Positions 198 through 62,205 of a stretch of 64,000 nt of DNA are shown here, piece after piece. This stretch comes from Sphingobacteriaceae bacterium. GTDB lineage: Bacteria > Bacteroidota > Bacteroidia > B-17B0 > Aurantibacillaceae. The stretch covers positions 2,232,001-2,296,000 of the forward strand of contig NVQB01000001.1 in NCBI GenBank assembly GCA_002319075.1. The letters run 5' to 3'. Numbering within the stretch: the first letter of the stretch is position 1; each line of letters opens with the position of its first letter. The notes beneath the pieces were generated by a model. The model was not told the DNA's origin. It saw only the letters and a program-made list of their open reading frames with translations, and searched no databases. The position numbers and the translations under genes are program-made.

Positions 198-581
198 ATC
201 AAAAATACCTTTCATAAACAGGAACGCTTATGCAGCAGAAAGCAAATGGAACTTCTGTTTAGCAAAGGAAAATCGCTAACCTCTTACCCGGTGAAATTGG
301 TGTACACTGAAACTCCAGTGGAACTCATATTTCCGGCGCAGGCCATGTTTGTAGCTCCTAAGAGAAGTTTTAAGCGTGCACACGACCGCAATAAACTCAA
401 ACGCCGTATGCGGGAGGTTTATCGCTTGCATAAAGGTCCCTTTTACGAAAACCTAAAATTAAATAGCAAAAAACTCTTAGTAGCGTTTATTTATATAGGC
501 AAAAAGCAGGAAGAATATCCTGCTATTGAAAAATCAATTTTAAAATTAATTTCGGGAATAGGTAAGCCTAAGATAAGCTGA
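198..581 (+). CDS. rnpA: Ribonuclease P protein component, probable AUC start
   Basis: Protein subunit of RNase P, which removes 5' leaders from pre-tRNAs together with the catalytic RNA. The family signature is visible as KRAHDRNKLKRRMREVYR, the RNR motif that contacts the RNA. The first ATG is at 246, giving 111 residues that begin MELLFSKGKSL. The family normally has about 15-20 residues before that point, with an F.K.ERLCS.K motif. In frame upstream the DNA encodes KNTFHKQERLCSRKQ, which matches. The frame is open back to TAA at 171 and contains no ATG, GTG or TTG. Candidate initiators are ATC at 198 (chosen, since (M)KNTF fits the family) or ATA at 189. The gene ends at 581, directly abutting the convergent hemD stop codon. 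Product identity is firm; the start is inferred. Confidence 0.88.
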   Translation: MKNTFHKQERLCSRKQMELLFSKGKSLTSYPVKLVYTETPVELIFPAQAMFVAPKRSFKRAHDRNKLKRRMREVYRLHKGPFYENLKLNSKKLLVAFIYIGKKQEEYPAIEKSILKLISGIGKPKIS

Positions 582-44450: not shown

Positions 44451-46406
44451 ATCCTGCAACTATCGGTCATTATAGTCAATTACAATGTAAAACACTTCCT
44501 AGAACAGTGTCTTTTTTCTGTATTTAAAGCTTTAAAAAACATTGAGGCTGAAGTGTTTGTAGTGGACAACAACTCCGTAGACGGCTCTATTACACTTATC
44601 CGCGAAAAATTTCCCAATGTAATCCTGATTCAAAATAAAAATAATGCCGGTTTTTCTGTAGCTAATAATCAGGCTATTAAAGTTGCTAAGGGTAAATATG
44701 TGTTATTACTAAATCCCGATACGGTTGTTCAGGAAGATGTCTTTGAGAAGACATTGGCCTTTATGGACGCTCATCCTGATGCGGGTGGCCTGGGAATTAA
44801 AATGCTGGATGGCAAAGGAACTTTTTTGCCGGAAAGTAAACGCGGTCTCCCTACCCCTGCCGTGGCCTTTTATAAAATTTTCGGACTGGCAAGACTTTTT
44901 CCCAAGTCGCAAAAATTTGGTCAATACCATTTAACTTACCTTGATAAAACAAAAAATCACCAGGTAGATGTACTGAGCGGAGCTTTTATGCTCATGAGAA
45001 AAGAAGCCCTGGATAAGGTTGGGCTGCTAGACGAAACTTTTTTTATGTACGGAGAGGACATTGACCTTTCTTACCGCATTACACAGGGCGGATACAAAAA
45101 TTACTATTTCGCTGAGAGCAGCATCATTCACTACAAAGGGGAAAGTACAAAAAAGAGCAGCGTTAATTACGTGATTGTGTTTTACAAGGCCATGGCAATC
45201 TTCGCACAAAAACACTTTAGCCAGAATAACGCGCGCCTGTTCAATATTCTAATTCATTTCGCGATCTATTTGAGAGCCGCCCTGGCTATTGCTGTACGTT
45301 TTGTAAAACAATTATTTTTTCCGGCCATCGATTTTATTATTATTTTGATCGGACTTTATTATTGCAAAACAATTTATGAAATCCGGTATAAGCTTTATCC
45401 CAATTTTTATTCGCGGGAAATGCTGGATCTCTTTTTTCCCATATATACGCTCATTTGGATGCTTTTCGTTTATCTCAGTGGCGGTTATGATGTGCCTACA
45501 AGTCTGAGAAAAATTGCCCGGGGTGTTTTAACGGGGTCTGCTTTCATCCTGATTATCTATTCTTTACTTCCTGAACATTACCGTTTTTCAAGAGCATTGA
45601 TTTTGATAGGATCAATTTACACGCTATTAATTTACATGGTAACGCGTCTTATTTACCACTTTCTCAAAATTAAACGCTTCAAATTAGGAGCGAGTCGCGC
45701 TAATGCCCGCATAGCTATCATTGGCAGCGAACAAGAATTTAATCGCGTTAACGAACTTTTAAAAGAAACGAATATAAACTCTGAATTTATTGGCTTTATA
45801 AGCACCGAGACAAATGGTGTAAAAAATGAAGCTTATATAGGCCAGTTCAGCCAAATTGACGAGGCAATTGATATTCACGCGCTTAATGAAATTATTTTTT
45901 GCGCGCGCGACATTTCTTCCCGTGAAATTATTGATCAGATGATAAGCCTTGTAACAAAAGGTGTGGAGTTTAAAATAGCTCCTCCTGAAAGCCTTTCCAT
46001 CATTGGAAGTAACAGCATTGATACTGCGGGCGATCTGTATGTAATAGATGTAAATAATGTGGGACGTGCCGAAAACAAAAGGAATAAACGTTTCCTGGAT
46101 ATACTTGTTAGTCTTTTCCTGCTATTGTTTTTCTGGGTATTTATCTGGTTTCAAAAACATAAATTGAATTTCATAGCCAATATCTTTAAAGTGCTATTTG
46201 GTTTTTATTCGTGGGTAGGTTATGGAAAAGGAATGCGAAAAGATTTGCCTTCCTTGCGTCCTTCTGTTTTAACTCCTGCCGACGGTCTCAAAGGAAAACT
46301 CAACAACGACCGCATTCACAAGTCACTTCTGAATTATTCTAAAGATTATAAAACTGAAAACGATCTGCAAATTATTTTCCTTGGAATTTCAAAATTAGGG
46401 CGATAA
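44451..46406 (+). CDS. GT2 glycosyltransferase fused to WcaJ-like membrane scaffold, probable AUC start
   Basis: About 651 residues. The N-terminal GT-A domain contains LSVIIVNYNVKHFLEQCL, VVDNNSVDGS, LLLNPDTVVQED and MYGEDIDLSYRI. The C-terminal half has five or so helices, a CoA-binding-like Rossmann segment (ARIAIIGSEQEFNRVNELL) and a KRFLDILVSLFLLLFFWVF helix as in polyprenyl-P glycosylphosphotransferases, but the KFRSM and Asp-Glu catalytic elements of WcaJ/PglC are not visible. The first canonical start, GTG 44553, would remove the conserved N-terminal strand. The frame is open back to TGA at 44385 without ATG/GTG/TTG; ATC 44451 or CTG 44454 fits best. Role in surface polysaccharide assembly inferred. 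Confidence 0.85.
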   Translation: MLQLSVIIVNYNVKHFLEQCLFSVFKALKNIEAEVFVVDNNSVDGSITLIREKFPNVILIQNKNNAGFSVANNQAIKVAKGKYVLLLNPDTVVQEDVFEKTLAFMDAHPDAGGLGIKMLDGKGTFLPESKRGLPTPAVAFYKIFGLARLFPKSQKFGQYHLTYLDKTKNHQVDVLSGAFMLMRKEALDKVGLLDETFFMYGEDIDLSYRITQGGYKNYYFAESSIIHYKGESTKKSSVNYVIVFYKAMAIFAQKHFSQNNARLFNILIHFAIYLRAALAIAVRFVKQLFFPAIDFIIILIGLYYCKTIYEIRYKLYPNFYSREMLDLFFPIYTLIWMLFVYLSGGYDVPTSLRKIARGVLTGSAFILIIYSLLPEHYRFSRALILIGSIYTLLIYMVTRLIYHFLKIKRFKLGASRANARIAIIGSEQEFNRVNELLKETNINSEFIGFISTETNGVKNEAYIGQFSQIDEAIDIHALNEIIFCARDISSREIIDQMISLVTKGVEFKIAPPESLSIIGSNSIDTAGDLYVIDVNNVGRAENKRNKRFLDILVSLFLLLFFWVFIWFQKHKLNFIANIFKVLFGFYSWVGYGKGMRKDLPSLRPSVLTPADGLKGKLNNDRIHKSLLNYSKDYKTENDLQIIFLGISKLGR

Positions 46407-57841: not shown

Positions 57842-58201
57842 TTAATCTTCTTCTTCTTTAGAATTAACACCAAACAACATGTTTAAGATGCCGGTGCAAA
57901 GAGAAAGAACGAGGCTGAAAAGCAGGGCAGAAAAAAACGAATTCACGTGAAAACCATTCACCAGCCGTCCGGCGAATATAATAATCAGGGCATTTATTAC
58001 AAGCAGAAATAACCCAAGCGTAACAATCGTTATGGGAATTGTAAGAATAGTAAGAACAGGCTTCACAATTGTATTTAAAAATGCCAATACAACTGCAACC
58101 ATTATAGCCGATAAATAATCATCTACAGTGATGCCTGGTAAAATTCTGGCAACAATAAAAACTGCCAGCGCCGAGACAAATATTTTTAATAGAAAATTGA
58201 T
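57842..58201 (-). CDS. Phage-holin-fold (PF04020-like) membrane protein, probable AUC start
   Basis: A small four-helix membrane protein of the family annotated as phage holin family protein, found in many non-phage bacteria, with unknown cellular role. The first ATG (58102) gives only 86 residues and three helices. In-frame DNA upstream encodes NFLLKIFVSALAVFIVARIL followed by PGITVDDYLSAI, the usual family N-terminus with helix 1 and the PG...D loop. The frame is closed by TAG at 58205-58207; between it and this sequence are only CAC and ATC. I therefore start at ATC 58201, giving 119 residues, the normal family length. No phage genes are near. Confidence 0.8.
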   Translation of the reverse strand: MNFLLKIFVSALAVFIVARILPGITVDDYLSAIMVAVVLAFLNTIVKPVLTILTIPITIVTLGLFLLVINALIIIFAGRLVNGFHVNSFFSALLFSLVLSLCTGILNMLFGVNSKEEED

Positions 58202-58210
58202 GTGCTAAAA

Positions 58211-59476
58211 TTACGTTTTTTGTTTCTTTTTCTTAGCGGCAGGAAATAAAATATTATTCAAAATCAACCTGTATCCTGGAGAGTTTGGATGCAGTGACAA
58301 GTCTGTAGGCGGCTCTTCTACCCTGTGTTGATAGTCTTCAGGGTCATGACCACTGTAAAAGGTCCAGGTGCCTTTGCCTAGATCTCCATGAATATATCTT
58401 GCCTCATTATAGGCCTTTGTTTCGCCCATAATCAGAACGTTCTTCTTAATGTATTGTTTGTTGAAGGCCGCAGTTTGTCCCCAGAACCCTTGAATCGTAG
58501 TTGCATGATTCTGGCAAAGCATTGTAGGAACAGGATCCCATTTTGCAGAAAATTCAAACAAGGTAAAAAGGTCGGTTTTTTGTGTAGGCCCATATTGATT
58601 TCTTGAGGAATAAGTATCAATAGTGGAGTATTCATACTCCATTGGATTCATACTTAACTTATAATCTTCAAAGGCAAAACCTTTGCTGTAATCTAATTTG
58701 CTGTTTGCATTTTTATCGGCAGGATCGTGGTCGAAAATACTTTCGCAAATATCAATTCCTTCTGCGGCTAGGGCTATATCGTAGCTATCGGTAGCACTGC
58801 ACATCGCAAATAAAAATCCACCGTTAAATACAAAGTCTTTTATGCGCTTTGCACTATGCAATTTCATTAATGAAACTTTAGTAAATCCAAGTTTTTTTGC
58901 CATTGCTTCGTTATCGCTCACCTCAGCTTGATACCAGGCAGCATTGTGAAATGAACCATAAAACTTTCCAAATTGCCCTGTAAAATCTTCGTGATGTAAA
59001 TGCAACCAATCGTAATCTTTTAATTTCTCGAGAAAAATTTCTTCGTCATAAATAACATCGTAAGGAATTTCAGCGTACTTTAAAACCAAGGTTACTGCAT
59101 CGTCCCAGGGTTGCTTACCTTTTGGGGAATACACTGCTATACGTGGAGCCTTCTCTAATTTAACAGCATCCTGATTTATCTCCGGATTTCCAATGTCGGC
59201 TAAAATCGAGCTACTTTGTGCGTCTGAAATTGTTTCGTAGCTAATTCCCCGTATCAAACACTCATTCGCTACTGCCTTCACATTTGGTATCATAAAGCTG
59301 CCGCCGCGATAATTTAAAAGCCAATGGATCTCGAGTTCTCCTTTAAGTGCCCAATAGGCCAAACCATAAGCTTTCAGGTGGTTTTTCTGCGACTCGTCCA
59401 TAGGTATAACTATGTATGAGGCAAAAGCTCTGAGACCGACAACAAAGAATAAAAACAGGAAAAGAATTTTTCTCAT
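58211..59476 (-). CDS. Exported Bacteroidota protein commonly named asparagine synthetase B (doubtful)
   Basis: A 421-residue exported protein (signal peptide to FASY) with blocks YIVIPMDESQKNHLKAYGLAYW, WLLNYRGGSFMIPN, DYDWLHLHHEDFTGQFGKFYG and HGDLGKGTWTFYSGHDPEDYQHRVEEPPTDL. Homologs across the phylum carry the label asparagine synthetase B, but I see neither an N-terminal catalytic Cys glutaminase nor a PP-loop ATP site, so that name is not supported. The His/Asp-rich blocks could form a metal site; the ThuA/GATase-like fold is a possibility. Function unknown. Confidence 0.7.
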   Translation of the reverse strand: MRKILFLFLFFVVGLRAFASYIVIPMDESQKNHLKAYGLAYWALKGELEIHWLLNYRGGSFMIPNVKAVANECLIRGISYETISDAQSSSILADIGNPEINQDAVKLEKAPRIAVYSPKGKQPWDDAVTLVLKYAEIPYDVIYDEEIFLEKLKDYDWLHLHHEDFTGQFGKFYGSFHNAAWYQAEVSDNEAMAKKLGFTKVSLMKLHSAKRIKDFVFNGGFLFAMCSATDSYDIALAAEGIDICESIFDHDPADKNANSKLDYSKGFAFEDYKLSMNPMEYEYSTIDTYSSRNQYGPTQKTDLFTLFEFSAKWDPVPTMLCQNHATTIQGFWGQTAAFNKQYIKKNVLIMGETKAYNEARYIHGDLGKGTWTFYSGHDPEDYQHRVEEPPTDLSLHPNSPGYRLILNNILFPAAKKKKQKT

Positions 59477-60456: not shown

Positions 60457-62205
60457 TTACTTGCGGACACCATCCTCATAATTCATACGATTTATCTCTT
60501 TTCCATTTTTATCGTAAAAAATCCACTCCCCGTCGGGCACACTCTGTACTTTACCCTTACGGCGATCGTTAACTATTTTGTAATTGCACACACTTTGTAT
60601 GTTTGAATTTGAGTAATAACTTACACTTTTACCACTTAATTTGCCATCCTTAAAGTTTTGCGTTCGGCTCACCCCACCTGTCTCAAAGTGATAAGTCCAT
60701 TGCCCATTTTGATGGCCCTTTTTGTAAGACCCCTCTGTATCTACAAATCCACCTTTTTCAAACCATTGTATATATGTACCGTGCTTTACACCATTCAAAT
60801 AATTAGTGAGTTCACGTGGCTGACCATTCTCATAAAAATAAGACCACTCACCTTTCTTATAACCTTTGTCGTCGTATTCGCCGGTATAATTTGGTTTACC
60901 GTTATAGTACCAACCTTGCCAGGAACTAATTAGCATAGTGCCTTTAATTGTTCCTTCGTCTTTTTTGGTGCCATTGTCCCACCAGCTTGTCCATAGCCCG
61001 TCTTCTTTTCCGTTCACATAAGGCCCTTCCTGAAGCTTTTGACCGTTTTCCCACCAGGTGGTCCAGGTGCCGGTTTTTATACCATTTTCAAAATTTCCTT
61101 GTTTCCATTTTTCGCTGGTTTTGTAAAAATAGTTCCAGGTGCCCGTTTGTTTATCATTTAAAAATTCTCCTTCGCTTTCTATTTGTTTGTTGGAATAATA
61201 ATATGTCCATTTTTCTTCCCGACTATTATCCTTCAAAGTACCCATCATTTCCAGAGTTCCGGCAGATGTATAAAATTTCCATACACCGTTCTTTTTATTT
61301 GCTGTAAAATTACCTTCACTTTTAATGTTATGGTTTTGAAAGTAAGAAGAGTAATAGCCATTTAACATCCCGGCTTCGTAGGTTGCTTCGTAATTGAGCT
61401 CACCGTTAGGATGAAAAAACCGCCATACGCCATTTTGCAAACCGTCTTTGTACGCGCCCATGGCACTGATAATGCCGTTATCATAGGTGGCCGTTAGTGT
61501 TCCGGTTCCACCTGAAATAATCTTTCTTCCTCTATCGTCCCAAAGATCCATCAAATAGAGCACAGTATCTTTGTATTCTTTTACAGATTTATTTTTTCCG
61601 TTCTCGTAAAAATCTTCCCAACGTCCACAAGGTTCGTCGCTGCAATAAGTGTTGCGCGAGGCCAGTTTTCCAGATTTAAAATAGGTCTCTGCTTTGCCAT
61701 TGCGTCTGTCGCGTTCAAAAGTTCCTTTGCTCTCGGGTAGGCCATTTTCAAAATAATATTCCCATTCACCTTCTTTTTTCCCCATCGCAAATGATTCGCG
61801 ACTTTTTACGTTTCCGTTTTCGTAATAGGAAGTCCACACACTGTCGGCAATATCGTTGTCTCTGGTACCCGGCTGGTATTTCGTAATCTGCGAAAGCTTG
61901 CCCGACTTAAAATAATAATAGTTGGTGCCCGATCTTAATCCGCGTTCATAACGCTCAACTGCTTTTTTGGTTCCATCTTCGTAATAGAAAGTCCACACGC
62001 TATCTTCTTTGCCATAATAATAAGTTCCCTTACGACTGAGCTTTCCAGACTTGTAATATTCCCGATGCAAACCATGGGGCATACCTTTATAATAATCTGT
62101 TTCTGTTTTTACTTTAGTTTGTTGTACATCGTGGTATTCTTTTTTAACCTGCGAAAGCAGAGAAAGACTAAGAAACAGAGAAGAAATAAGGAATAAAAAA
62201 CGCAT
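60457..62205 (-). CDS. YwqK-like MORN-repeat exported protein
   Basis: A 582-residue exported protein (signal peptide to SLLSQ) consisting almost entirely of about twenty-two MORN-type repeats of 22-24 residues, with the pattern G.W.YYYENG....G.Y..GK..G.W (examples: KEGEWEYYFENGLPESKGTF, KTGTWTTWWENGQKLQEGPY, RKGKVQSVPDGEWIFYDKNG). Such proteins are annotated as toxin-antitoxin system YwqK family antitoxin, but no toxin partner is near and a signal peptide is present, so an antitoxin role is not supported here. Probably a surface or periplasmic structural protein. Confidence 0.82.
   Translation of the reverse strand: MRFLFLISSLFLSLSLLSQVKKEYHDVQQTKVKTETDYYKGMPHGLHREYYKSGKLSRKGTYYYGKEDSVWTFYYEDGTKKAVERYERGLRSGTNYYYFKSGKLSQITKYQPGTRDNDIADSVWTSYYENGNVKSRESFAMGKKEGEWEYYFENGLPESKGTFERDRRNGKAETYFKSGKLASRNTYCSDEPCGRWEDFYENGKNKSVKEYKDTVLYLMDLWDDRGRKIISGGTGTLTATYDNGIISAMGAYKDGLQNGVWRFFHPNGELNYEATYEAGMLNGYYSSYFQNHNIKSEGNFTANKKNGVWKFYTSAGTLEMMGTLKDNSREEKWTYYYSNKQIESEGEFLNDKQTGTWNYFYKTSEKWKQGNFENGIKTGTWTTWWENGQKLQEGPYVNGKEDGLWTSWWDNGTKKDEGTIKGTMLISSWQGWYYNGKPNYTGEYDDKGYKKGEWSYFYENGQPRELTNYLNGVKHGTYIQWFEKGGFVDTEGSYKKGHQNGQWTYHFETGGVSRTQNFKDGKLSGKSVSYYSNSNIQSVCNYKIVNDRRKGKVQSVPDGEWIFYDKNGKEINRMNYEDGVRK

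Follow-up and report, generated by a model that had tools for sequence, protein, structure and literature searches.

The PF04020 gene and its predicted product

The window, by which we mean the whole 64,000-nucleotide stretch of DNA that was analysed, carries on its minus strand a gene for a small membrane protein of Pfam family PF04020. The features of this locus are as follows.

57842 to 58201, minus strand: coding sequence of the PF04020 four-helix membrane protein, 119 amino acids plus stop (Pfam E = 3.7e-31; AlphaFold2 pLDDT 82)
58199 to 58201, minus strand: AUC (ATC) start codon of the PF04020 gene, the start column of the genus comparison
58205 to 58207, minus strand: in-frame TAG two codons 5' of the ATC, which bounds the choice of start
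58100 to 58102, minus strand: first in-frame ATG of the PF04020 gene, codon 34, rejected as start
58211 to 59476, minus strand: upstream gene, 421 amino acids, ending PAAKKKKQKT*, with adjacency kept in 34 of 40 genomes of the genus

Read on the minus strand, positions 58207 to 58199 are TAG CAC ATC, followed by AAT TTT CTA TTA AAA ATA TTT. An earlier, sequence-only reading had described this arrangement with the first ATG far downstream, and its description is exact: the first ATG, GTG or TTG in the frame is the ATG at 58102 to 58100, which is codon 34 when the ATC is counted as codon 1. Translated from the ATC, the protein has the N-terminus NFLLKIFVSALAVFIVARILPGITVDDYLSAI and runs onward as INFLLKIFVSALAVFIVARILPGITVDDYLSAIMVAV... 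The gene is present as a single copy in its genome. The PF04020 profile matches residues 1–104 of the 119 over profile positions 1–104 of 105 (E = 3.7e-31), and the score of 108.3 bits, against a curated cut-off of 28.8, places the protein within the family.

The predicted structure was calculated with AlphaFold2 from an alignment of 57 rows and has a mean pLDDT of 82.4 and a pTM of 0.71. Its elements (H2-20, E24-26, H29-58, H62-80, E84-86 and H89-110) form two helix-strand-helix repeats, the first comprising H2-20, E24-26 and H29-58, and the second H62-80, E84-86 and H89-110. The internal repeat is also visible in the sequence, with a local score of 59 compared with 26.4 +/- 4.7 for shuffles, none of 1000 scoring as high. 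All four transmembrane helices of the family are predicted, and helix 1 is present only if the protein is translated from the ATC. In the model, helix 2-20 and strand 24-26 would be missing from a protein begun at ATG 34, and the repeat fold would be broken, in keeping with the earlier claim that the first ATG would delete helix 1. The predicted fold has no match below E 2.6 in the PDB and none below E 0.17 among the viral structure models searched, and the fold therefore gave no functional lead.

The sequence-only reading had also called this a holin-fold gene. Membership of PF04020 stands, but 'holin' (Phage_holin_4_2; 'Mycobacterial 4 TMS phage holin') is only the name of the Pfam family, which we take to be a label. 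Phage holins make lethal membrane lesions at lysis, and their genes lie beside endolysin genes. The neighbours of the PF04020 gene that were seen are ordinary chromosomal genes, and the gene is present in all 40 genomes of the genus. Further along the minus strand, at 60457 to 62205, lies a gene for a 582-amino-acid protein with multiple MORN_2 repeats (PF07661) and a weak similarity, below the model cut-off, to LIC20035-type adhesins. By analogy with its relatives, the PF04020 protein is more likely to have a role in envelope stress than in lysis: YvlD belongs to the sigma-W regulon of B. subtilis (PMC3498285), and yvlD-pspC-yvlB are LiaR-linked envelope-stress genes in Enterococcus (PMC7033496).

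Conservation of the start column

We compared 70 distinct PF04020 copies, 40 from the genus (uncultured Bacteroidota) and 30 from outside it. Within the genus, the start column holds ATC in 22 genomes, ATG in 11, ATT in two, and ATA, CTG, GTG and TTG in one each, while in the fortieth genome an ATG sits one codon upstream of the column. The column is therefore ATG or a single-base neighbour of ATG in 39 of 40 genomes. Outside the genus, an ATG is found in 30 of 30 copies, either in the start column or a few codons away. A near-cognate start outside ATG, GTG and TTG is thus kept between species, as ATC in 22 and as ATT, ATA or CTG in four more. The first canonical codon of these 26 copies is scattered over positions 8 to 62, and we found no canonical alternative start common to them. 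The reading frame downstream evolves as coding sequence, with a mean pN of 0.20 and pS of 0.63 over codons 2-33 (pN/pS 0.32) and pS exceeding pN in 210 of 210 pairs. Over codons 2-16 alone, pN/pS is 0.23.

These data bear on two ways in which the ATC might be misleading. The protein could start at an internal codon (ATG 34, ATA 7 or another) with its first residues untranslated. ATG 34 is what gene finders limited to ATG, GTG and TTG would choose, and all 22 ATC copies have ATA at codon 7 (58181 to 58183, minus strand), even though isoleucine is more often encoded by ATT. An internal start is nevertheless very unlikely, given the coding-type evolution of codons 2-33 (with the low ratio over codons 2-16), the differing position of the first canonical codon among copies, the ATG that sister copies have in the ATC column, and a repeat fold that is broken without helix 1 and strand 1. 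Alternatively, since ATC differs from ATG by one base, the codon could be a sequencing error or mark a pseudogene that has lost its start. The identical ATC recurs in separate assemblies from 22 species, with frames intact and under purifying selection, and makes this explanation close to negligible. The start column, the selection on the N-terminus and the scatter of first canonical codons together exclude, or nearly exclude, sequencing error, pseudogene and internal start alike.

Conservation between species thus shows ATC to be the true start codon of the PF04020 gene, conserved as AUC and restricted to the genus. Judged from the alignment, the ATC column is well beyond chance, being common to 22 species and alternating only with codons capable of starting translation, and ATC is a genus-wide feature rather than an oddity of one genome. 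What the sequence-only reading proposed for the start is borne out here: ATC as the start, a conserved stretch of 33 N-terminal residues, and methionine at the ATC column of homologues (11 copies in the genus and, in or near the column, all 30 outside it). Neither of the observations that it named as fatal was made, as no set of homologues shares an internal ATG as start and no frameshift occurs in any ATC copy. It had not anticipated the conservation of ATC itself throughout the genus, nor similar starts in other genes there.

The upstream gene and the retention of ATC

The upstream gene of 421 amino acids has no Pfam or NCBIfam match. Its product has a likely signal peptide and is 76–90% identical across the genus. 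In the window, 9 nt separate its stop codon, TAA at 58213 to 58211, from the ATC. Most genomes of the genus have a stop-to-start gap of -1 to 24 nt, and the others one of at least 64 nt. The upstream frame varies in phase relative to the ATC among species and a stop always intervenes, and we therefore rejected a fusion with, or read-through from, the upstream gene. In four genomes (L003, L006, L008 and L051), insertions with CCCCCTTT...AAAGGGGG-like sequence lie between the upstream stop and the kept ATC.

This arrangement raises the possibility that AUC is merely tolerated under translational coupling, in that ribosomes reinitiating from the upstream gene would make the quality of the start codon a minor matter and an ancestral ATG would have decayed to ATC. 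The distribution of the copies fits such an account. Of the 40 genus copies, 34 lie beside the 421-amino-acid gene, 28 of them with a codon other than ATG, while the six located elsewhere have ATG in every case. Gaps of -1 to 24 nt are frequent and include a TGATC overlap in L017. Several copies from outside the genus have their own Bacteroidota -33/-7 promoter about 25 nt before an ATG, and no such motif is recognisable upstream of the ATC copies. Set against this, ATC is kept in eight relatives within the genus at gaps of 64, 71, 83, 85, 105, 137, 224 and 692 nt, and in four of these (L003, L005, L006 and L031) no ORF ends nearby. In E. coli, reinitiation falls to background by 40 nt (PMC2268962), and coupling can therefore hardly be the general reason for AUC. 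ATG is also possible only 4-6 nt from the upstream stop, as in L030 and L115.

The codon itself provides a further argument. Mere tolerance predicts drift among ATC, ATT and ATA, whereas the genus copies with an isoleucine codon in the start column have ATC, ATT and ATA in a ratio of 22:2:1. Elsewhere in the ATC copies, the 371 isoleucine codons are ATT in 214 cases, ATA in 118 and ATC in 39, so that ATC makes up only about 10% of the usage. Synonymous sites downstream are nearly saturated, yet ATC is invariant in the ATC copies, and its persistence through near-saturation indicates that weak starts can be selected. On a tree of the upstream and PF04020 proteins (33 genomes), at least seven changes between ATC and other states are needed, so the start-column counts are not independent and p-values derived from them are descriptive only. 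Neighbouring genes start with ATG in 57 of 62 scored cases. We regard tolerance under coupling as possible but rather unlikely. Coupling is not required for the AUC start, and the retention of AUC across 22 species points, from comparative evidence, to deliberately weak translation.

Initiation at AUC and its relation to known systems

The reading that we prefer, and consider probable, is that an intact PF04020 gene is translated at a low level from the AUC at 58201 to 58199 by weak, IF3-sensitive initiation with the ordinary initiator tRNA. The ordinary fMet initiator tRNA (anticodon CAU) would read AUC with a mismatch at the third position, and the protein would begin with fMet. From this mismatch we infer that initiation would be weak and that IF3 could reject it, as it can for infC. 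Weak, IF3-sensitive initiation is the most likely effect of the AUC, with low expression and IF3 control carried over by analogy from other organisms. Such a start would keep down the amount of a protein that is membrane-active and probably serves in envelope stress, and would let this amount increase when IF3 is in short supply. In the window's species, where the gap is 9 nt, ribosomes finishing the upstream gene probably aid initiation and supply many of the initiating ribosomes. Coupling would then assist initiation without accounting for the AUC, as other species keep AUC without this proximity.

Special decoding, with a dedicated initiator tRNA of anticodon GAU reading AUC, could be imagined from the ATC and ATT starts of several genes in the genus. 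In a survey with 47 model matches, however, no special initiator tRNA was seen: the sole initiator-type tRNA has a CAU anticodon and the three G:C pairs, and both tRNA-Ile(GAU) genes are of the usual type and lie beside tRNA-Ala. The CTG, TTG and GTG in the start column of relatives also misfit a GAU initiator, and we hold this explanation to be extremely unlikely. Outside the window, at G000:C1:5363263-5364069 (+), lies a compact array of seven tRNA genes (Gln, Leu, Ile-UAU, Pro, His, Phe and Tyr), several of them low-scoring, which resembles the arrays of mobile elements.

The PF04020 gene is not the only gene of the genus with a near-cognate start, and two further examples lie in the window.

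44454 to 46406, plus strand: family-2 glycosyltransferase with a CTG start, CTG in 24 of 30 genus copies (PF00535, E = 7e-25)
198 to 581, plus strand: rnpA (ribonuclease P protein) with an ATC start, from the genus start column (PF00825, E = 1e-12)

The start column of the glycosyltransferase in 30 genus copies is CTG in 24, TTG in five, GTG in one and ATG in none; in other families the gene has ATG in 13 of 19 copies and CTG in one. A conserved AATTATAATTATTTTAG stretch precedes its CTG. For rnpA, 30 genus copies have ATC (9), ATT (5), ATA (2), TTG (8), GTG (3) and ATG (1). We estimated the frequency of such starts from 536 kb of this genome and 400 kb of a congener. Among 245 orthologous pairs, the N-terminus is conserved ahead of any canonical start in both genomes for about five genes, namely the PF04020 gene, rnpA, the glycosyltransferase and the genes for an outer-membrane-like protein and a small membrane protein. 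No clear case turned up among 164 gene pairs of a control from another genus, a difference that is suggestive only (Fisher p 0.09), and the genus-wide columns carry more weight. Outside the window, two more genes, at G000:C1:2429221-2430003 (-) and 2460558-2461079 (+), have conserved N-termini (signal peptide, membrane helix) that precede any canonical start, with CTG and ATC/ATT as the likely starts. Near-cognate starts seem to be unusually frequent in the genus.

The infC gene of the genus itself has an ATC or ATT start, preceded by the SD-like sequence GCGGAGG. Autoregulation of IF3 through a near-cognate infC start is textbook knowledge. It is conceivable, though doubtful, that infC, rnpA, the PF04020 gene, the glycosyltransferase and a few more form a genus-wide, IF3-tuned regulon on near-cognate starts; in the sample, the candidate set accounts for some 2% of genes, and were the regulon real, IF3 that is low relative to ribosomes would make the whole set rise together. 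Compared with 16 out-group IF3s, the IF3 of the genus differs by A to V in PNADPPVCK, E to D in VKEIRF and N to H in GPNTDDHDF. A link between these genus-fixed columns (seen in infC of L116-L120 and others) and the stringency of start-codon choice is only a guess.

To our knowledge, few bacterial genes with conserved starts outside ATG, GTG and TTG have been documented, and we found no report of an AUC start in Bacteroidota in the literature searched. Gene finders that accept only ATG, GTG and TTG shorten or miss near-cognate genes, and here 33 residues and a whole helix would be lost. Ribosomes of Bacteroidota largely ignore Shine-Dalgarno pairing, as is probably true of this genus too, and the gene offers a test bed for start-codon choice in such a phylum. 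In a survey of 61,358 ancestral AUG starts, resting on annotations that rarely allow starts of the CUG, AUU or AUC type, a change to CUG or AUU was found in only three, and a change to AUC is listed for none (PMC5622118).

The PF04020 protein resembles YvlD and other small membrane proteins of its family in sequence, length, four helices and chromosomal location. It differs from YvlD in its non-AUG start, and neighbours of the sigma-W or LiaR-type yvlD-pspC-yvlB kind are absent here. On comparative grounds, the gene, which lies outside the translation machinery, has a conserved AUC start and joins infC and Streptomyces sigR in a rare known kind. As in infC (AUU, AUC or AUA), a conserved near-cognate start would be read by the ordinary initiator tRNA. 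In this genus infC differs in having its SD-like GCGGAGG and in coding for the discriminating factor, which allows autoregulation; the PF04020 gene lacks an SD-like sequence and is not known to be linked to translation. The GTC start of Streptomyces sigR is conserved in 32 of 34 species, is repressed by IF3 and is needed for correct low expression (PMC5472188). In contrast to sigR, with its strong conserved ribosome-binding site, the PF04020 gene has an AUC with no SD and follows another gene; like sigR, it has kept a non-canonical start genus-wide in a gene outside the translation machinery.
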